This document shows, in pieces, positions 32,825 to 40,301 of a stretch of DNA of 64,000 bases. The stretch is taken from contig NZ_PGES01000001.1 in the NCBI RefSeq assembly GCF_002797895.1, positions 1,798,001 through 1,862,000 of the forward strand. Direction: 5' to 3'. A program made the translations under genes and the position numbers. The stretch's first letter is position 1. Each line of letters begins with the position of its first letter. The notes below the pieces were generated by a model. It saw nothing but the letters and a program-made list of their open reading frames with translations. It had not been told where the DNA came from and searched no databases. The stretch is from Janthinobacterium sp. 67. Its GTDB lineage: Bacteria; Pseudomonadota; Gammaproteobacteria; Burkholderiales; Burkholderiaceae_D.

Positions 32825-32895
32825 TGTAAGTGTTTGTAATTCGCAAAAAACGTGTCAACGGTATTGCCGTACGGCGCGTTTTTGGCTCAGTGACA
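32825..32895 (+). promoter_or_regulatory. Shared promoter module, copy A (Asr-like gene 1)
   Basis: Direct repeat TGTAA-N5-TGTAA at 32825-32839, then after 14 bases GTCAAC (32854-32859), 16 bases, GCGTTTT (32876-32882), and a common leader GCTCAGTGACA (32885-32895). The same elements precede the other two units of this gene family. Confidence 0.6.
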
Positions 32896-32943
32896 GGGGA
32901 TTGATCTCCTGAACTACAACCCCACTTCTCGAGGAACTGCACC

Positions 32944-33255
32944 ATGAAAAAAGTAATCGCTACTCTGATCGCCGGCTTGTTCGCTACCGCAGCCTTTGCT
33001 CAAACGCCAGCCGCGCCTGCCAAGGCCGAAGCCAAGCACACCAAGGAAGTGGCAAAAGCGGAAGCCAAGGAAACCAAGGCTGTCGTCAAAGCCGATGCCA
33101 AGGAAGCGGCCGTCGTCGCCGATGCGAAAGCCGACGTAGCCAGCGCCAAGGCCGACGCCAAAGTCACCAAGGCAAAAGCCCATCACAAAGCGAAAAAAGC
33201 CAAGGCCAAGGCTGACGAAGCCAAAACTGAAGCGACCGCGGCAGCAGCCAAATAA
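32944..33255 (+). CDS. Asr-like Ala/Lys-rich exported protein 1
   Basis: A 103-residue exported protein. The signal peptide (MKKVIATLIAGLFATAAFA, cleaved before Q) is followed by a low-complexity chain of Ala, Lys, Glu and Asp with repeats of the KADAKEA type, and a His-containing KAHHKAKKAKAK stretch. It is expected to be disordered or helical and periplasmic. Composition and the HHK stretch recall the enterobacterial acid-shock protein Asr; true homology cannot be shown from such low complexity. It has its own promoter module and a strong terminator at 33284-33309. Confidence 0.8.
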   Translation: MKKVIATLIAGLFATAAFAQTPAAPAKAEAKHTKEVAKAEAKETKAVVKADAKEAAVVADAKADVASAKADAKVTKAKAHHKAKKAKAKADEAKTEATAAAAK

Positions 33256-33283
33256 TTCGCTCCGCGCGTTTCATGCGCCACGC

Positions 33284-33309
33284 AAAAAGACAGCTTCGGC
33301 TGTCTTTTT
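33284..33309 (+). terminator. Intrinsic terminator after Asr-like gene 1
   Basis: Stem AAAAAGACAGC, loop TTCG, and complementary GCTGTCTTTTT: a perfect 11-base stem ending in a T-run. Confidence 0.88.
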
Positions 33310-33357
33310 GCATTTTCGCGCCGCTTTCTTCAATTAACATCGCTTAAATCAGTCGAT

Positions 33358-33419
33358 TGTAAGAAAGTGTAAACAAGGTCAACCGCAAGCTTCCGGACCG
33401 CGTTTTCTGCTCAGTGACA
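33358..33419 (+). promoter_or_regulatory. Shared promoter module, copy B (Asr-like genes 2-3)
   Basis: TGTAA-N5-TGTAA at 33358-33372, five bases, GTCAAC (33378-33383), 16 bases, GCGTTTT (33400-33406), and GCTCAGTGACA (33409-33419). From 33400 onward it aligns without gaps to copy C, 5528 bases to the right. Confidence 0.6.
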
Positions 33420-33477
33420 CGGGAATCATCCCGGCACCAACAGACATACCAGACAAACCACCACTGAGGACTGCACC

Positions 33478-33828
33478 ATGAAAAAAGCAATTGTTACCCT
33501 GATCGCCGGCCTGTTCGCAACTGCAGCCTTCGCCCAAACGCCGGCAGCACCTGCCGCCGCTCCGGCAGCTTCGGTTCCCGCGAAAGTGGAAGCGGCCCAC
33601 ACCAAGGCAGTCGTCAAGGCTGACGCCAAGGAAGCGCAAGCCGTCGTGAAAGCCGATGCCAAAGAAGCGAAAGCCGTCGTCGCCGCGAAAACGGAAGTCG
33701 CCAGCGCCAAAGCGGAAGCGGCCACCACCAAAGCCAAGGCACACCACAAAGCCAAGCACACGAAAGCCAAGGCTGATGCAAAACTGGCTTCGGCCACCGC
33801 TGAAGCAGCGCCAGCAGCAGCCAAGTAA
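33478..33828 (+). CDS. Asr-like Ala/Lys-rich exported protein 2
   Basis: A 116-residue exported Ala/Lys-rich protein. Signal peptide residues 1-19 (MKKAIVTLIAGLFATAAFA). The mature part has two tandem copies of an 11-residue VKADAKEA-type unit (about 45-66) and a KAHHKAKHTKAK stretch. It is nearly identical to the protein at 39006-39368, including 5' flanking DNA, so one is a recent copy or the two are kept alike by gene conversion. It is followed 39 bases later by a third family member, with no terminator between, so the two form one unit. Confidence 0.8.
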   Translation: MKKAIVTLIAGLFATAAFAQTPAAPAAAPAASVPAKVEAAHTKAVVKADAKEAQAVVKADAKEAKAVVAAKTEVASAKAEAATTKAKAHHKAKHTKAKADAKLASATAEAAPAAAK

Positions 33829-33867
33829 TCCCTCACACAATCGCTTGTCACTCGCCAGGAAAATACA

Positions 33868-34200
33868 ATGAAAAAAGTTATCGCCACCCTCATCGCCGGC
33901 CTGTTCGCTACCGCTGCCTTCGCCCAAACTCCTGCCGCTCCGGCAGCATCGGTTCCCGCCAAGGCGGAAGCGGCCCACACGAAAGCCGTGGCCAAGGCTG
34001 AAGCCAAGGAAACCAAGGCTGTCGTGAAAGCCGATGCGAAAGAAGCGGTAGTCGCCGCCGACGCGAAAGCCGACGTGGCCAGCGCCAAGGCCGACGCCAA
34101 AGCCAGCAAGGCAAAAGCCCATCACAAGGCGACCAAGGCCAAAGTGAAAGCGGATGCGGCCAAAGCGGCAGAAGCGGTTCCAGCAACGCCAGCCAAGTAA
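33868..34200 (+). CDS. Asr-like Ala/Lys-rich exported protein 3
   Basis: A 110-residue member of the same family, with the signal peptide MKKVIATLIAGLFATAAFA and a mature chain that mixes features of proteins 1 and 2 (SVPAKAEAAHTKAV; KAHHKATKAKVKADAAK). It is the second gene of the B unit and is closed by a terminator at 34217-34242. Long open frames on the opposite strand here are artefacts of the Ala/Lys codon pattern. Confidence 0.8.
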   Translation: MKKVIATLIAGLFATAAFAQTPAAPAASVPAKAEAAHTKAVAKAEAKETKAVVKADAKEAVVAADAKADVASAKADAKASKAKAHHKATKAKVKADAAKAAEAVPATPAK

Positions 34201-34216
34201 TCGATCGCATTTCCAG

Positions 34217-34242
34217 AAAAGACAGCTTCGGCTGTCTTTTTT
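34217..34242 (+). terminator. Intrinsic terminator after Asr-like genes 2-3
   Basis: AAAAGACAGC, loop TTCG, GCTGTCTTTT then TT: the same hairpin sequence as the terminator after gene 1. Confidence 0.87.
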
Positions 34243-34373
34243 GCATTGCGGGGCAACACAACTGAAAAGCATCGCCCGCCCTCCGCCGGCATCCACGTAA
34301 ATCCATGTAAAGACAGGAAAAACGGCGCTTTCCAGTCACAAAGTATTTGCTATTCTGGCCATCGCTCAAATAG

Positions 34374-34402
34374 AATTGCGAATTATTCTCATTCTCATTC
34401 AA
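34374..34402 (+). promoter_or_regulatory. Fur box upstream of TonB receptor
   Basis: The minus strand reads as repeated GAATGA-GAATGA-GAATAAT hexamers, the usual form of a Fur-Fe(II) site (overlapping NATWAT-like units). It lies 19 bases ahead of the receptor start, so iron would repress the receptor and the downstream PepSY gene. Confidence 0.75.
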
Positions 34403-34420
34403 ATTTCCAGGAGCCGTTTC

Positions 34421-36553
34421 ATGCCAGGTCGCCCCCATTCATCTTCCCGCCCCACGCTGTCGCTGCACCCGCTGGCCCTGGCTATTTCGCTGGCGCTGGG
34501 CGCCGGCATGGCGCATGCCGCCGATGGCGCTGCCGCCGACGTGCCGGTGATGCAAACCATTACGGTTACGGGCAGCAGCGACGCCATCGCGTACACGACG
34601 CGCAAGAGCGCCTCGGCCAGCAAGTTCGACCTGTCGCTGCGCGATACGCCGCAAGCCGTCTCTGTTGTCACGCGCGCGCAGATGGATGATTTCAAGCTCG
34701 ATAACGCCAGCAAGGTGCTGGCGCAAACCACGGGCGTGACGGTGGAGGCGGTGGAAACGGACCGCACCTATTACACGGCGCGCGGCTACGACGTCACCAA
34801 TTTCCAGTTCGACGGCGTGGGCCTTCCTTTCGTCTTCGGCAACGTGATGGGCGACCTCGATACGGCGCTGTTCGAACGCGTCGACATCGTGCGCGGCGCG
34901 AACGGCCTGATTTCCTCCACCGGCAATCCATCGGCCACCGTCAACTTCGTGCGCAAGCGCCCTGGCGCCGGCCTGGCCGCTTCCGCCGGCGTCACCCTCG
35001 GTTCCTGGAACACGCGCCGCCTCGATGCGGACGTCTCCGCGCCGCTCAGCGCCGATGGCAAGGTGGCCGCGCGCTTCGTCGTCGCGCATGAAGAAGGCGA
35101 TTCCCACCTGGACCGCTACGCGCCGCGCAAGGATGTCGCCTACGCCATCGTCGAAGCGCAACTCACGCCGGACACCAGCCTGACCGTGGGCCACAGCTAC
35201 CAGAACAACCTGGCCAAGGGCGGCATGTGGGGCGCCCTGCCCATCGCCTACACGGACGGCACGCCGACCAACTACCCGATTTCCACCTCGACCTCGGCCG
35301 ACTGGTCGCGCTGGAGCATCCTCAACAACAGCACCTTCGCCGAACTGGCGCACCAGTTCAATGCCGACTGGCGCGTGAGCGCCACCGCCACCTACAACCG
35401 CTCCACCTCCGACTCGAAGCTGTTCTACGTCTACGGCACGCCGGACAAGGCCACGGGCGACGGCCTGTTCAGCTATCCGTCGCGCTATGGCTCGACCAAC
35501 AAGCAGCGCCTGCTCGATGTCGCCGCCACGGGAAAATTCATGCTCGCCGGGCGCCGGCATGACCTCAGCATGGGACTGGCGTGGTCGAAATCCACGCTCG
35601 ACGACGTGTCCTACTATGGCCGCGGCATCGGCACGGCCCTGCCCGATGGCACGGCGTTCGACGGTTCCTACCCCGAACCGGCCTTTGATGCCTCGACCGA
35701 CGGCAGCGCCTACAAGGATGAACGCAAGAACGCCTACCTGGCCGCCCGCTTCAACCTGGCCGACAACGCCAAGCTGCTGGCGGGCGTGAACACCGTCAAG
35801 GCCGACAGCACGGGCAGCGCATATGGCGTCAGCCAGGCCAAGTCGCAAAGCGACACCACGCCGTACGTCGGGCTGGTGTACGACATCGGCCGCCATGTGT
35901 CGGCCTACGGCAGCTACACGGAGATTTTCAACCCGCAAAGCAGCATCGACGGCACGGGCCAGACCCTGGCGGCGGCCACCGGCAAGAGCCTGGAAGCGGG
36001 CCTGAAAAGCGAGTGGTTCGACGGCCGCCTGAACCTGTCCGGCGCGCTGTTCAAGACGCGCCAGAAGAACGTGGCGGAAGCGGCCGGCACCACGCCCGAC
36101 CTCAAGACCTTCTACAAGGGCGTCGATTCGGAATCACAGGGCTTCGAACTCGATGCATCGGGCGAGCTGACGAAGGGCTGGCAGGCGAACGCCGGCTATG
36201 CGCAGCTGCGCATCAAGGGCAACGATGGCAAGGATGCGCGCACCTTCATCCCGCGCAAGCAATTCCACCTGGCCACCACCTGCCATGTGCCGGCCATGCC
36301 TGCGCTGAAAGTGGGCGCCAGCCTGAACTGGCAGGACGCCATCTACAACCGGATCGACGACACGACCACCCTGCACCAGGGCGCGTATGCGCAGCTGGGC
36401 CTGATGGCCAGCTACGCCATCAGCCGCAACGTCAGCCTGGCGCTGAACCTGAACAATGTGACGGACAAGAAGCACCTGACCAGCTTGTACTGGACCCAGT
36501 CGCTGTACGCCGCCGGCCGCAATGGCAGCGCCACCCTGAGCTGGAAATATTAG
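34421..36553 (+). CDS. TonB-dependent siderophore receptor
   Basis: Outer-membrane receptor of 710 residues. Signal peptide about 1-33 (ending AHAAD), a TonB box-like MQTITVTGS, a plug domain (about 60-165; SLRDTPQAVSVVTRAQMDDF, ERVDIVRGANGLI) and a 22-strand-type barrel ending in the aromatic SWKY. There is no N-terminal signalling (STN) domain, so it is a transport-only receptor. The ATG at 34421 has GGAG; an upstream in-frame TTG lies inside the Fur box and is rejected. A PepSY membrane protein follows nine bases later. The ligand is probably a ferric hydroxamate- or pyoverdine-type siderophore, not resolved. Confidence 0.92.
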   Translation: MPGRPHSSSRPTLSLHPLALAISLALGAGMAHAADGAAADVPVMQTITVTGSSDAIAYTTRKSASASKFDLSLRDTPQAVSVVTRAQMDDFKLDNASKVLAQTTGVTVEAVETDRTYYTARGYDVTNFQFDGVGLPFVFGNVMGDLDTALFERVDIVRGANGLISSTGNPSATVNFVRKRPGAGLAASAGVTLGSWNTRRLDADVSAPLSADGKVAARFVVAHEEGDSHLDRYAPRKDVAYAIVEAQLTPDTSLTVGHSYQNNLAKGGMWGALPIAYTDGTPTNYPISTSTSADWSRWSILNNSTFAELAHQFNADWRVSATATYNRSTSDSKLFYVYGTPDKATGDGLFSYPSRYGSTNKQRLLDVAATGKFMLAGRRHDLSMGLAWSKSTLDDVSYYGRGIGTALPDGTAFDGSYPEPAFDASTDGSAYKDERKNAYLAARFNLADNAKLLAGVNTVKADSTGSAYGVSQAKSQSDTTPYVGLVYDIGRHVSAYGSYTEIFNPQSSIDGTGQTLAAATGKSLEAGLKSEWFDGRLNLSGALFKTRQKNVAEAAGTTPDLKTFYKGVDSESQGFELDASGELTKGWQANAGYAQLRIKGNDGKDARTFIPRKQFHLATTCHVPAMPALKVGASLNWQDAIYNRIDDTTTLHQGAYAQLGLMASYAISRNVSLALNLNNVTDKKHLTSLYWTQSLYAAGRNGSATLSWKY

Positions 36554-36562
36554 GGAGCCGCC

Positions 36563-37804
36563 ATGCGACTGCGTCCTTCGATGGTCGTCCTGCACCGCTG
36601 GTTCGGCCTGGCGGTAGCCCTCTTCCTGTTCGTCTCCGGCCTGACGGGCGCCGTCATCTCGTGGGATCACGAACTCGATGCCTGGCTCAATCCGCAGCTG
36701 TTCCACGCCGCCAGCGGCGCGGACGCGGGGCCGACAAAAACAGGCCTGGAACTGGCGCGCCAGCTCGAGGAGCAGGACCCGCGCCTGCGCGTCAACTACA
36801 CGCTCACGGCGCTCGAACCCGGGCACGCGGCGCTGATCTCGGTGGAAGGCCGGCTGGACCCGGCCACCGGCAAGCCGTTTGAAACGGGCTTCAACCAGGT
36901 GGCCGTCGATCCCGCCACGGGCGCCATCCAGGGCACGCGCCAGTGGGGCGTCGTCTCGCTGACGCGCGAAAACCTGCTGCCCTTCCTGTACAAGCTGCAT
37001 TACACCATGCACATCCCCGATGGCTGGGGCATCGAACTGGGCGTCTGGTTCATGGGCATCGTCGGCATCGTGTGGCTGTTCGATTGCGGCATCGCGCTGT
37101 ACCTGTCGTTCCCGAACTGGCGCAGCTGGCGCAAATCGCTGGCCTTCCGCTGGCGCGAAGGCGGCCACAAGCTGAACTTCGACCTGCACCGCTCGGGCGG
37201 CGTGTGGGTCTGGCTGTTGCTGCTGGTGCTGGCCATCACCTCCGTGTCGATGAATCTGCAAACCCAGGTGATGCGTCCCCTCGTGGCGAAGTTGTCCACC
37301 CTCAGCACGAACGCCTTCGACAGCCGCTCGCCGCGGCCGCCCGACCACCCCATCGAACCGTTGCTGACGCGCGAACAGGCGGTGGCGCTGGCCAGGACGG
37401 AAGCGGCAAGGCGCGGCTGGGCGCTGCCGGCCGGCGGCGTGTTTTACTCGTCGAGCTACGGCCTGTATGGCGTGGGTTTCTTCGAGGCGGACAATGACCA
37501 TGGCGACGGGGGCCTGGGCAACGCGTGGCTCTACTTCGATGGCCGCGACGGCAAGCCGGCTGGCGGCGTGGTGCCCGGCACGGGCAGCGCGGGCGATATC
37601 TTCCTGCAGGCGCAATTCCCGCTGCATTCCGGCCGCATCCTCGGCCTGCCCGGTCGCATCCTGATTTCCGCCATGGGCCTGGTGGTGGCGATGCTGAGCG
37701 CGACTGGACTGGTCATCTGGCTGCGCAAGCGCGGCGCGCGGGTGCGGCAAGCCGGCAAGGCTGCCCATGAAGCACACCAGCTTCATGCGACCTTCAGCAA
37801 ATAG
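36563..37804 (+). CDS. PepSY-associated inner-membrane protein (probable siderophore iron reductase)
   Basis: A 413-residue inner-membrane protein with four predicted helices (about 14-35, 150-175, 212-232, 365-390) and periplasmic PepSY-type regions. Conserved histidines lie in VLHRWFGL and in LHRSGGVW, typical of the PepSY_TM family, some members of which reduce siderophore-bound iron in the periplasm. It follows the Fur-controlled receptor by nine bases with an AGGGAG site, so the pair forms an iron-uptake unit. The reductase role is inferred from family and context. Confidence 0.88.
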   Translation: MRLRPSMVVLHRWFGLAVALFLFVSGLTGAVISWDHELDAWLNPQLFHAASGADAGPTKTGLELARQLEEQDPRLRVNYTLTALEPGHAALISVEGRLDPATGKPFETGFNQVAVDPATGAIQGTRQWGVVSLTRENLLPFLYKLHYTMHIPDGWGIELGVWFMGIVGIVWLFDCGIALYLSFPNWRSWRKSLAFRWREGGHKLNFDLHRSGGVWVWLLLLVLAITSVSMNLQTQVMRPLVAKLSTLSTNAFDSRSPRPPDHPIEPLLTREQAVALARTEAARRGWALPAGGVFYSSSYGLYGVGFFEADNDHGDGGLGNAWLYFDGRDGKPAGGVVPGTGSAGDIFLQAQFPLHSGRILGLPGRILISAMGLVVAMLSATGLVIWLRKRGARVRQAGKAAHEAHQLHATFSK

Positions 37805-37876
37805 GCTCGGCAAACCGCCACAAGGCGGCGCAATTGGGCGACACTGGCCATCCGCCCATCGCCACGAAAGCCGTCC

Positions 37877-38890
37877 ATGCGCCATCTGCTGCTGATTACC
37901 ACCTTGTATCTGCCCTTCGCCGCCGGTGCGCAAGACAACCCCGCCACCCTGGAACAAGTCCTGCAAGCCGAGGACGGCGACAGCCATGGCGACTTGCGCG
38001 CCGTCGTCGTGCTGCGCGACGGCGCCATCGTGGCCGAGCGCTATTACAACGGCGAGACGGCCGACACCCTGCACGACATCCGTTCGGCCGGCAAGAGCAT
38101 CACCGCCTTGCTGGCAGGTGCGGCCGTGGCGCGCGGCCAGCTGGCGACGACAAAAACGGTGGGAGACTACTGGCCCGAAGTCGCCGGCAGCCCGGCGGGC
38201 AAGGTGATCCTCGACGACTTGCTGACCATGCGTTCTGGCCTGGCCGCCTTCGATGAGGACGAACAGTCGCCGGGCAATGAAGACAAGCTCGATGCGGCGC
38301 CCGACCCTGCCGCCTTCGTGCGCGGCGTGCCCGTCGCCACGGCACCGGGCAGCACGTACCGCTACAACTCGCTGGGAGCGTATATCGCGGGCAGAGTGGC
38401 GGAAAGCGCCAGCGGCGCCGACCTGGAAGATATCGCGGCCAAGGCGCTGTTCGCGCCGCTGGGCATCACGCGCTGGAGCTGGGGCCGCGACGTGGCCAAC
38501 CATCCTAAAGGACAGGGCAATTTGTCGCTGCGCGCACGCGACACGGCAAAAATCGGCCAGATGGTGCTCGACGGCGGCGTAGTTGACGGCAAGAGGGTGA
38601 TCGATACGAGCTGGCTGCAAGCCGCGCTGGCGCCGCGCGTGGCCATCGGCGCCGTCGACCGCTACGCCGACAGCTACGGCTATTTCTGGTACGCGAAGAC
38701 GCAGGATATCGGGGGCCACAAGATCACCGTGCATTTCGCCTCGGGCAATGGCGGCAACAAGATCTACGTGATACCGGCGCGCCGCATGGTGGTGAGCATC
38801 GCATCCAGCGCGTATGGCAAGGGATATGGACAGCGCCGTTCGGAAGACATCCTGAAGGCCATCCTGAAGGCGGATGCAACGCAGATGTAA
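37877..38890 (+). CDS. Exported beta-lactamase-fold serine hydrolase
   Basis: A 337-residue protein of the serine beta-lactamase/penicillin-binding-protein-like family (PF00144 type). Signal peptide about 1-18 (ending GAQ). Catalytic SxxK is S70-A-G-K73, the YxN-like motif is Y163-N164, and a C-terminal HFASGNGGNKIYV segment takes the place of the KTG box. These proteins are usually esterases or peptidases, not true beta-lactamases. The stop codon overlaps the first TGTAA of promoter copy C. It is independent of the iron genes by a 72-base gap. Confidence 0.87.
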   Translation: MRHLLLITTLYLPFAAGAQDNPATLEQVLQAEDGDSHGDLRAVVVLRDGAIVAERYYNGETADTLHDIRSAGKSITALLAGAAVARGQLATTKTVGDYWPEVAGSPAGKVILDDLLTMRSGLAAFDEDEQSPGNEDKLDAAPDPAAFVRGVPVATAPGSTYRYNSLGAYIAGRVAESASGADLEDIAAKALFAPLGITRWSWGRDVANHPKGQGNLSLRARDTAKIGQMVLDGGVVDGKRVIDTSWLQAALAPRVAIGAVDRYADSYGYFWYAKTQDIGGHKITVHFASGNGGNKIYVIPARRMVVSIASSAYGKGYGQRRSEDILKAILKADATQM

Positions 38891-38946
38891 GCGTTTGTAA
38901 TGACCGTCAACGGTAACGATCCGGGGCGCGTTTTATGCTCAGTGAC
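38886..38946 (+). promoter_or_regulatory. Shared promoter module, copy C (Asr-like genes 4-5)
   Basis: TGTAA-N5-TGTAA at 38886-38900 (the first overlaps the stop of the previous gene), five bases, GTCAAC (38906-38911), 16 bases, GCGTTTT (38928-38934), then GCTCAGTGACA. Confidence 0.6.
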
Positions 38947-39005
38947 ACGGGAAACATCCCGGCACCAACAGACATACCAGACAAACCACCACTGAGGACT
39001 GCACC

Positions 39006-39368
39006 ATGAAAAAAGCAATTGTTACCCTGATCGCCGGCCTGTTCGCAACTGCAGCCTTCGCCCAAACCCCGGCAGCACCTGCAGCCGCTCCGGCAGCTTC
39101 GGTACCGGCGAAAGTGGAAGCGGCCCACACCAAGGCCGTCGTGAAAGCGGACGCCAAGGAAGCGCAAACGGCCGTGAAAGCCGATGCGAAAGAAGCCAAG
39201 GCAGTCGTCGCCGCGAAAACGGAAGTCGCCAGCGCCAAAGCGGAAGCGGCTACCACGAAAGCCAAGGCACACCACAAGGCCAAGAAAACCAAGGCCAAGG
39301 CCGACGAAAAGCTGGCATCGGCCACCGCCGAAGCAGCACCGGTAACGGCACCTGCAGCAGCCAAGTAA
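39006..39368 (+). CDS. Asr-like Ala/Lys-rich exported protein 4
   Basis: A 120-residue near-copy of the protein at 33478-33828: the same signal peptide, the same tandem KADAKEA units and KAHHKAKKTKAK stretch, with four extra residues (VTAP) near the C-terminus. The upstream 78 bases are also almost identical between the two loci, which argues for a segmental duplication or gene conversion. It is the first gene of a two-gene unit. Confidence 0.8.
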   Translation: MKKAIVTLIAGLFATAAFAQTPAAPAAAPAASVPAKVEAAHTKAVVKADAKEAQTAVKADAKEAKAVVAAKTEVASAKAEAATTKAKAHHKAKKTKAKADEKLASATAEAAPVTAPAAAK

Positions 39369-39410
39369 TTCCGACACACTTTACCGACCACACATACCAA
39401 GGATTTCATC

Positions 39411-39689
39411 ATGAAAAAAGTTATCGCCACCCTGATCGCCAGCCTGTTCGCCACCGCCGCTTTCGCCCAGGCGCCAGCGGCTCCTGCCGCCACCCCGGCC
39501 GCTCCTGCAGTGGCAGCCGCACCGGCAGCCAAGGCCGAAGCCCCGGCAGCCGCCGTCAAGCCGGCGACGCACAAGAAAGCCAAGCATCACAAGGCCAAGA
39601 AAGCCGCTCCAGCCGACAAGGCAGCACCGGCGGCGCCAGCAGCTTCCGCACCGGTAGCTTCCGCGCCAGCAGCAACGCCAGCCAAGTAA
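39411..39689 (+). CDS. Asr-like Ala/Lys/Pro-rich exported protein 5
   Basis: A 92-residue exported protein with the family signal peptide (MKKVIATLIASLFATAAFA) but a more divergent mature part, rich in Ala-Pro and lacking the KADAKEA repeats. It keeps a KKAKHHKAKKA stretch. It is the second gene of the C unit and is closed by a terminator at 39707-39733, which may also serve the converging FAS1 gene. Confidence 0.78.
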   Translation: MKKVIATLIASLFATAAFAQAPAAPAATPAAPAVAAAPAAKAEAPAAAVKPATHKKAKHHKAKKAAPADKAAPAAPAASAPVASAPAATPAK

Positions 39690-39706: not shown

Positions 39707-39733
39707 AAAAGACAGGGTGCGCCCTGTCTTTTT
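39707..39733. terminator. Bidirectional terminator between Asr-like gene 5 and FAS1 gene
   Basis: AAAAGACAGGGTGCGCCCTGTCTTTT: stem GACAGGG/CCCTGTC with flanking A-run and T-run, lying between convergent genes. Confidence 0.8.
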
Positions 39734-39743
39734 TTTCGTCCGC

Positions 39744-40301
39744 TTATTTGGGCATCAGCACCGTGTCGATGACATTGATCACGCCATTCGACTGGTACAC
39801 GTCATAGGTGCTGATGTTGGCGCTGTTGCCGCCTTCATCCATCACCACGATGTTGTGCATGCCGTTCATGGCGAACATCAGCTTGCCGCCGCTGGCCGTG
39901 GCCAAAGTGGCCTTGCCGTCATGCGTCTTGATTTCGTGGGCCAGCGCCTTGAAGTCGTATTTGCCGGGTACCACGTGATAGGTGAGGATTTTCGTCAGGG
40001 TCGCCTTGTTTTCCGGCTTGACCAGGGTATCGACGGTGCCGGCCGGCAGCTTGCCGAAGGCCGCATTCGTCGGCGCGAACACGGTAAATGGCCCCTTGCC
40101 TTTCAATGTATCGACCAGGCCGGCGGCCTTGACGGCGGCGACCAGGGTCGTGTGGTCGGCTGAATTGACGGCGTTGTCGACGATGTCCTTGGACGGATAC
40201 ATGCTCTGGCCACCGACCATGGTCGCCATGTCGGCGGCAAACGGGGCGCTGGCGGCCAGCATGGAAGCGAGGAACAGTGCTGCGGGAACGAAGGTGCGCA
40301 T
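39744..40301 (-). CDS. Exported fasciclin (FAS1) domain protein
   Basis: A 185-residue secreted or periplasmic protein. Signal peptide about 1-23, then a single FAS1 domain with its two hallmark blocks: GPFTVFAPTNAAFGKLPAGTVD (H1) and LTYHVVPGKYD leading to a GVINVIDTVLMP end (H2). FAS1 proteins act in adhesion or surface contacts. The ATG at 40301 has an AGGAG site eight bases upstream. Single-gene unit. Confidence 0.93.
   Translation of the reverse strand: MRTFVPAALFLASMLAASAPFAADMATMVGGQSMYPSKDIVDNAVNSADHTTLVAAVKAAGLVDTLKGKGPFTVFAPTNAAFGKLPAGTVDTLVKPENKATLTKILTYHVVPGKYDFKALAHEIKTHDGKATLATASGGKLMFAMNGMHNIVVMDEGGNSANISTYDVYQSNGVINVIDTVLMPK

Follow-up and report, generated by a model that had tools for sequence, protein, structure and literature searches.

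Analysis of a 64,000-nt window of the Janthinobacterium sp. 67 genome (contig NZ_PGES01000001.1) revealed that five small genes for Ala/Lys-rich, predicted exported proteins are arranged in three units, A, B, and C, which share one composite promoter design that is conserved across genera. Reading the sequence directly, we found a TGTAA-N5-TGTAA direct repeat, GTCAAC, 16 bases, GCGTTTT, 2 bases, and GCTCAGTGACA in register in front of gene 1 (unit A), genes 2 and 3 (unit B), and genes 4 and 5 (unit C) (Table 1). The spacing between GTCAAC and GCGTTTT is 16 bases in all three units, and the gap between the repeat and GTCAAC measures 14 bases in unit A and 5 bases in units B and C, which confirms both the shared arrangement described in the initial annotation and its 9-base shift of the unit A repeat. 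From the sequence comparisons below, we lean towards a reading in which each unit has an OmpR-activated promoter of the extracytoplasmic function (ECF) type that serves only one family of small proteins, which are predicted to be exported and disordered.

A genome-wide search, which the initial annotation had proposed as a check, placed the composite at this locus only. Specifically, GTCAAC-N16-GCGTTTT-NN-GCTCAGTGA (≤2 mismatches) occurred three times in the 6.45-Mb genome, all three at the present locus; it was also found in 23 of 25 Janthinobacterium genomes (this one included) and in none of 16 other genomes of the order, with no match for the reversed control. Across the family, a near-identical pattern (≤1 mismatch) was present in 38 of 245 genomes and 5 of 44 genera (control: 0), i.e., in 18 of 19 Janthinobacterium genomes and in 20 genomes from four other genera. 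A broader search found the composite in 13 of 399 genomes, 8 of them in the family; the composites with one or two mismatches outside the family (5 of 386 genomes; control: 2) are read as chance. A one-mismatch composite outside the family (L294, 1653, − strand) precedes an open reading frame (ORF) with a signal-like N-terminus and EF-hand-like motifs (by eye); we took it as chance, and it could reflect a distant use of the design. Three Janthinobacterium genomes failed the strict pattern (G021, G022, and G246), and G013 passed the Janthinobacterium search only with two mismatches; each of the four carries GTCAAC-N17-CGTT 70 to 89 bases before at least one gene of this type. In a 15-genome set that included these four, a protein match was found in 10 genomes, six of them outside Janthinobacterium. 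Among these six, the core lies 77 to 92 bases upstream in G054, G102, and G072 and at the doubtful distance of 213 in G085, and no core was seen upstream of the matched genes in G091 and G117.

The design also proved specific to one type of gene. At 18 loci (7 from Janthinobacterium, the others picked from the composite searches), all 21 translated sites were followed by an ORF whose N-terminus is of the MKKVIATLIAGLFATAAFAQ type and whose body is rich in Ala/Lys. Leaving aside four in-family sites with two mismatches, we inspected six further composite sites of the family in G068, G058, G095, and G136 (five exact, one with a mismatch), and all precede such genes. A second set was picked by protein rather than by promoter; its 79 distinct loci came from the top-scoring 80 of at least 132 relatives (Janthinobacterium, Duganella, Rugamonas, Massilia, Pseudoduganella, and kin); removal of ORFs with <60% Ala/Lys/Glu/Pro/Thr/Val and of duplicate upstream DNA left 131 ORFs. 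GTCAAC-N17-CGTT occurred within 300 bases upstream of 79 of the 131, and the exact repeat occurred upstream of 58, every one of which had the core. Wherever (T/G)GTAA-N5-TGTAA lay upstream (67 ORFs), AAC-N16-18-CGTT followed within 60 bases (67/67). By eye, most ORFs that lack the core come second in an operon, and others belong to a sub-family of ~155 aa with the upstream motif GTACGCTAGCGTAC.

Two side observations concern these genes. In one genome of another genus, three exact composites (L288, L289, and L290), two of them ~6 kb apart and the third >650 kb away, each precede such a gene. The ~155-aa sub-family has the same N-terminus and lacks the core, and a GTACGCTAGCGTAC-like palindrome was seen by eye upstream of many members; these are found upstream of 3001 in L165, L177, L182, L184, L196, L197, L204, L205, and L214.

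The core of the composite, GTCAAC-17-CGTT, is the same, spacing included, as the promoter of the Acinetobacter ECF sigma factor SigAb, as given in excerpts of the SigAb study (PMC12153292). According to these excerpts, point mutagenesis defined GTCAAC as the −35 element and CGTT as the −10 element with a 17-base spacer, a spacing of 16 was tolerated and one of 18 was weaker, the promoter was silent in E. coli without SigAb, and the direct regulon was small (PMC12153292). All three units fall within GTCAAC, 16 to 17 bases, and CGTT, and the proposal of an ECF-type core is supported, with the SigAb promoter a closer match than the GGAAC type originally named. The bases after CGTT vary among relatives (TT, TC, GA, CT, and others), as expected if CGTT is the element. 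Because the core matches the SigAb promoter exactly, it is plausible that OmpR activates an ECF-type promoter here. Among other occurrences of the core, the one that comes closest to a convincing promoter precedes a gene read by eye as a mutarotase and looks like chance. An exact GTCAAC-N17-CGTT also falls within the coding region of an ECF-type sigma gene (L223), upstream of the gene that follows (L260; G000:C1:2194824-2194850), and is probably a chance occurrence in a conserved coding motif.

Next, we turned to the repeat. Across 59 non-redundant promoters (of 82), conservation upstream of GTCAAC falls on two GTAA elements, at −19 to −16 and at −9 to −6. In the set picked by protein, the gap from the end of the first exact repeat to GTCAAC was 5 bases in 42 cases, 6 in 5, 14 in 2, 15 in 1, and 25 in 8, and G013 provides one further case of 15. 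The 25-base class has an extra proximal GGTAA-N5-TGTAA, giving four half-sites in a row, so that the only real shift is from 5/6 to 14/15, about one helical turn; the shift seen in unit A therefore recurs in relatives. Tandem half-site arrays are present in Duganella and Massilia, with many Massilia promoters showing TGTAA, TGTCA, GTAA, and TGTAA in tandem.

Several lines of evidence point to OmpR as the reader of this repeat. The half-sites are of the TTACA/TGTAA type and 10 bases apart, and TGTAA-N5-TGTAA is the exact reverse complement of the repeat GTTACATTTTGTTACAT that excerpts of a chromatin immunoprecipitation (ChIP) study report for E. coli OmpR (PMC5438342). The genome encodes an OmpR ortholog, in that the regulator of its ompR-envZ pair scored above the OmpR equivalog cut-off (NF007005, 420 versus 331 bits). 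This regulator and E. coli OmpR are identical in the segment DVQISRLR, which we take to be the OmpR recognition helix. We found ompR in all 30 relatives tested (10 genera), and the exact repeat lies upstream of it in all 29 with readable upstream DNA, including those in which no composite was found (the contig of the 30th ends before this DNA). Genome-wide, the exact repeat occurs 12 times (control: 5), with 3 copies at the present locus, 1 before ompR-envZ, and 8 elsewhere; the last number is close to the control count, and a wide regulon found no support. Divergent from ompR, and sharing with it the intergenic stretch that contains the TGTAA repeat, is a 129-aa ORF with no NCBIfam match (L091, 850-1239, − strand). 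In Salmonella, acid shock is followed by autoregulation of ompR, as stated in excerpts of a further study (PMC3945435), which by analogy makes a link to acid plausible.

In the mechanism that we propose, EnvZ would phosphorylate OmpR, a dimer of which would bind the pair of TGTAA half-sites that lie one helical turn from each other immediately before GTCAAC. Bound OmpR would then recruit RNA polymerase with an ECF sigma factor, which would recognize GTCAAC as the −35 and CGTT as the −10 element across 17 bases. Transcription would start at or beside a conserved A, so that the mRNA would open with a small, possibly protective stem-loop. The products would reach the periplasm, where their lysine-rich, mostly 11-residue repeats may protect proteins or membranes in the manner of disordered late embryogenesis abundant (LEA) proteins and Asr.

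The leader sequences are in keeping with such a stem-loop. Counting from GTCAAC as 0, G31 is conserved in 57 and A35 in 55 of the 59 promoters, and we propose A35 as the transcription start. The 59 leaders of 27 bases starting at A35 gave a mean folding energy of −8.1 kcal/mol, compared with −3.8 kcal/mol for mononucleotide shuffles, and the best of 50 shuffled leader sets reached −4.4 kcal/mol. Among 48 unique leaders, 41 had z < −1 and 28 had z < −2. They show 16 different innermost stems, e.g., CGGGA/UCCCG, CAGGGGA/UCUCCUG, and CACG/CGUG; a search of Rfam gave one sub-threshold match, which is irrelevant. Protection of mRNA by a 5′ stem-loop is known for ompA, and by analogy the 5′-terminal stem-loop could protect these mRNAs.

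Could the likeness of the three units reflect recent duplication only, with no selection on the promoter? A 300-bp stretch that includes the nearly identical leaders is 91% identical between units B and C, and part of their likeness is thus recent duplication, but the design is not. The block recurs in several genera, the spacers being free to vary and the promoter elements constant; in the alignment of 59 promoters, in which GTCAAC and CGTT are invariant by construction, the spacer positions carry little information, yet both GTAA elements and the leader are informative. These cross-genus data contradict duplication for the design as a whole, which makes it very improbable as the sole explanation and answers one of the two refuting conditions named in the initial annotation. 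We regard it as somewhat unlikely that OmpR or one of its kin works with sigma-70, GTCAAC/CGTTTT then being an unusual activator-dependent sigma-70 promoter or the site of a second protein. The ordinary holoenzyme serves E. coli asr and ompF/ompC, and no ECF gene with such a promoter came to light: the genome has 33 sigma-region-4 matches, many of them not ECFs, and the upstream stretches scanned at the 30 fetched loci contained no GTCAAC-N16-18-CGTT. An autoregulated ECF was therefore not found among these loci; such autoregulation is common, not obligatory. The sigma-70 explanation has to contend with a core identical, spacing included, to a promoter described in the SigAb excerpts as silent in E. 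coli without SigAb (PMC12153292). It also has to contend with the lack of a conserved A at the key −10 position and with the absence of a sigma-70-like site from two scanned stretches, in which, however, only 0.4 and 0.1 were expected by chance.

A related question is whether another member of the OmpR family, RstA-type or otherwise, reads the repeat in place of OmpR, as happens at E. coli asr, the case from which the initial annotation had argued. Excerpts of a study of RstA place E. coli asr under RstA control and give the RstA box as TACATNTNGTTACA, which fits the same repeat in reverse complement (PMC4117788), so that the motif does not decide between the two regulators. The genome also encodes an RstA-like regulator (45% to E. 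coli RstA) with TGTAC repeats before its gene, and repeats of this type precede the gene for such a regulator in 4 of 13 loci read. However, at an E-value of 1e-60 an RstA-like regulator was found in 1 of 10 congeners and was absent from the other 9, and it was also missing from 10 of the 20 genomes in that set that carry the motif, so that RstA does not occur wherever the box does; ompR was present in 30 of 30 relatives. On these grounds, we rejected RstA as the conserved regulator. With ompR in all 30 relatives, the repeat before it in all 29, and the RstA-like regulator patchy, OmpR is the economical choice, and the repeat is most likely an OmpR site when weighed against the nearest RstA-like regulator; a reader other than OmpR is unlikely. 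Thus, the OmpR/PhoB-type assignment of the initial annotation can be narrowed to OmpR as the likeliest regulator, while its analogy with asr holds for RstA control in E. coli and fails for the regulator, which most congeners tested lack.

Besides the fit of the RstA box and the sigma loci without the core, several observations count against an OmpR-activated ECF-type promoter. The core alone is not enriched genome-wide (26 matches versus 44 in the reversed control), which makes the composite the special part, and sorting of these 26 sites with a crude gene finder showed no convincing promoter at the 23 outside the asr-type units. In some genes the core is not accompanied by an exact repeat, and RNAalifold found no consensus structure in a MAFFT alignment of the leaders, so that the case for the hairpin rests on single-sequence folds of related sequences. 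The partner kinase has EnvZ as its best match and scored below the curated cut-off (267 versus 415 bits). In addition, OmpR is described in excerpts of one study as having only moderate sequence specificity, with no significant motif in its ChIP sets (PMC3945435). Extending the preferred reading of an OmpR-activated ECF-type promoter to the whole family gives a tentative model, one that we would rate somewhat below even: an AND-gate in which OmpR directly activates ECF holoenzyme at a promoter reserved for exported, LEA-like 11-residue-repeat proteins, whose mRNA would be stabilized by a 5′ hairpin.

By eye, the N-terminus of each of the five proteins is signal-like; their mature parts contain no aromatic residue, and their net charge was computed to be near +9. 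The products of genes 1 to 4 show an 11-residue period that none of 500 shuffles each reached, gene 5 and E. coli Asr lack it, and 11 was the best period between 5 and 25 in 51 of 72 distinct relatives behind the core. The Pfam Asr model (PF06392) matched E. coli Asr with 47.8 bits (cut-off: 24.9) and none of the five proteins at an E-value up to 0.1 (for gene 2, also up to 1); nor did any Pfam family, LEA included, match any of them at up to 0.1, and PHROGs gave no match for gene 1. A protein search returned 68 relatives, few of them named and none named acid shock protein. AlphaFold2 modeled the gene 2 product as a single long helix with low confidence (mean pLDDT, 52). Taken together, the proteins are likely exported and disordered, resemble LEA proteins in period and Asr in composition, and belong to neither Pfam family; the term "Asr-like exported proteins" thus holds for composition and predicted export and not for membership in the Asr family. 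Six distant relatives (P0022, P0024, P0030, P0036, P0058, and P0061) have the precomputed Pfam domain PF27998, which a Pfam rescan of P0024, P0030, and P0058 did not report.

One of the closest known counterparts is E. coli asr/RstA, with which the units share small, predicted exported, Ala/Lys-rich products without aromatic residues, a regulator type of the OmpR family, and a TTACA/TGTAA repeat with a 10-base period. They differ from asr in the orientation of the repeat, the core promoter, and the likely regulator, and the one pair compared by BLAST showed no detectable similarity to E. coli Asr, a periplasmic disordered chaperone that, unlike these proteins, matches the Pfam Asr family and is without the period of genes 1 to 4. 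The OmpR sites of ompF/ompC have a tandem half-site layout, and the present sites resemble them in that TTACA-type half-sites recur at 10-base intervals upstream of the −35 region; they differ in being joined to an ECF-type core and, as far as examined, confined to a single gene family. With group 3 LEA proteins, the present proteins share predicted disorder, richness in Ala/Lys/Glu, an 11-residue period (genes 1 to 4), and a long helix (the low-confidence gene 2 model); they differ in their signal-like N-terminus, the lack of a Pfam LEA match, a dominance of lysine, and a net positive charge. The likeness to the SigAb system (PMC12153292, excerpts) lies in the promoter (GTCAAC, CGTT, and the 17-base spacer); the bacterial class and the genes are different, and here an OmpR-like repeat lies upstream.

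Table 1. Features of units A, B, and C (positions within the window)
Feature	Position	Strand	Remarks
Unit A OmpR-like direct repeat TGTAA-N5-TGTAA	32825..32839	+	sequence read
Unit A promoter core GTCAAC (−35), 16 bases, GCGTTTT	32854..32882	+	GCGTTTT at 32876; CGTT (−10) at 32877
Unit A conserved GCTCAGTGACA, 5′ hairpin	32885..32915	+	proposed start A 32889 (inferred)
Gene 1, Ala/Lys-rich predicted exported protein	32944..33255	+	103 aa; 11-residue period
Unit A terminator-like hairpin AAAAGACAGCTTCGGCTGTCTTTTT	33285..33309	+	repeat-family comparison; absent from list of a separate scan
Unit B OmpR-like direct repeat	33358..33372	+	sequence read
Unit B promoter core GTCAAC-N16-GCGTTTT	33378..33406	+	GCGTTTT at 33400; CGTT at 33401
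Unit B GCTCAGTGACA, 5′ hairpin	33409..33437	+	proposed start A 33413 (inferred)
Gene 2	33478..33828	+	116 aa; 11-residue period
Gene 3	33868..34200	+	110 aa; 11-residue period
Unit B terminator-like hairpin	34217..34241	+	identical to unit A hairpin
Unit C OmpR-like direct repeat	38886..38900	+	overlaps stop codon of preceding gene
Unit C promoter core GTCAAC-N16-GCGTTTT	38906..38934	+	GCGTTTT at 38928; CGTT at 38929
Unit C GCTCAGTGACA, 5′ hairpin	38937..38965	+	proposed start A 38941 (inferred)
Gene 4	39006..39368	+	120 aa; 11-residue period
Gene 5, Ala/Pro/Lys-rich	39411..39689	+	92 aa; without 11-residue period
Unit C terminator-like hairpin	39707..39731	+	variant of unit A/B hairpins (68%)

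Between units B and C (34421-38890) are genes for an FhuE/FauA-like (siderophore-type) TonB receptor, a PepSY_TM protein, and a beta-lactamase-fold protein. The distance between the two units differs among relatives (e.g., about 2.07 kb in G004 and 5.5 kb in G002), indicating that the intervening stretch was gained or lost. A fasciclin-domain protein is encoded convergently, directly after unit C (39744-40301, − strand).

Searches of the open-licence literature (titles and abstract starts; subscription papers were outside their scope) returned no report of this promoter design, and a search of the same literature on acid shock protein in Oxalobacteraceae found nothing. If the preferred reading is true, a two-component regulator acts directly on an ECF-type promoter, and the promoter type read by SigAb gains a second, phylogenetically distant home. 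The paralogous units, with their fixed architecture and a natural one-turn spacing variant, offer a clean test system. The preferred reading would also suggest that the betaproteobacterial look-alikes of "acid shock protein" form a family of their own, which is LEA-like. Under the same reading, OmpR would govern a set of periplasmic protectants across a large group of bacteria from soil and freshwater, and, if the AND-gate is true, EnvZ/OmpR would run a periplasmic protectant system in Oxalobacteraceae.

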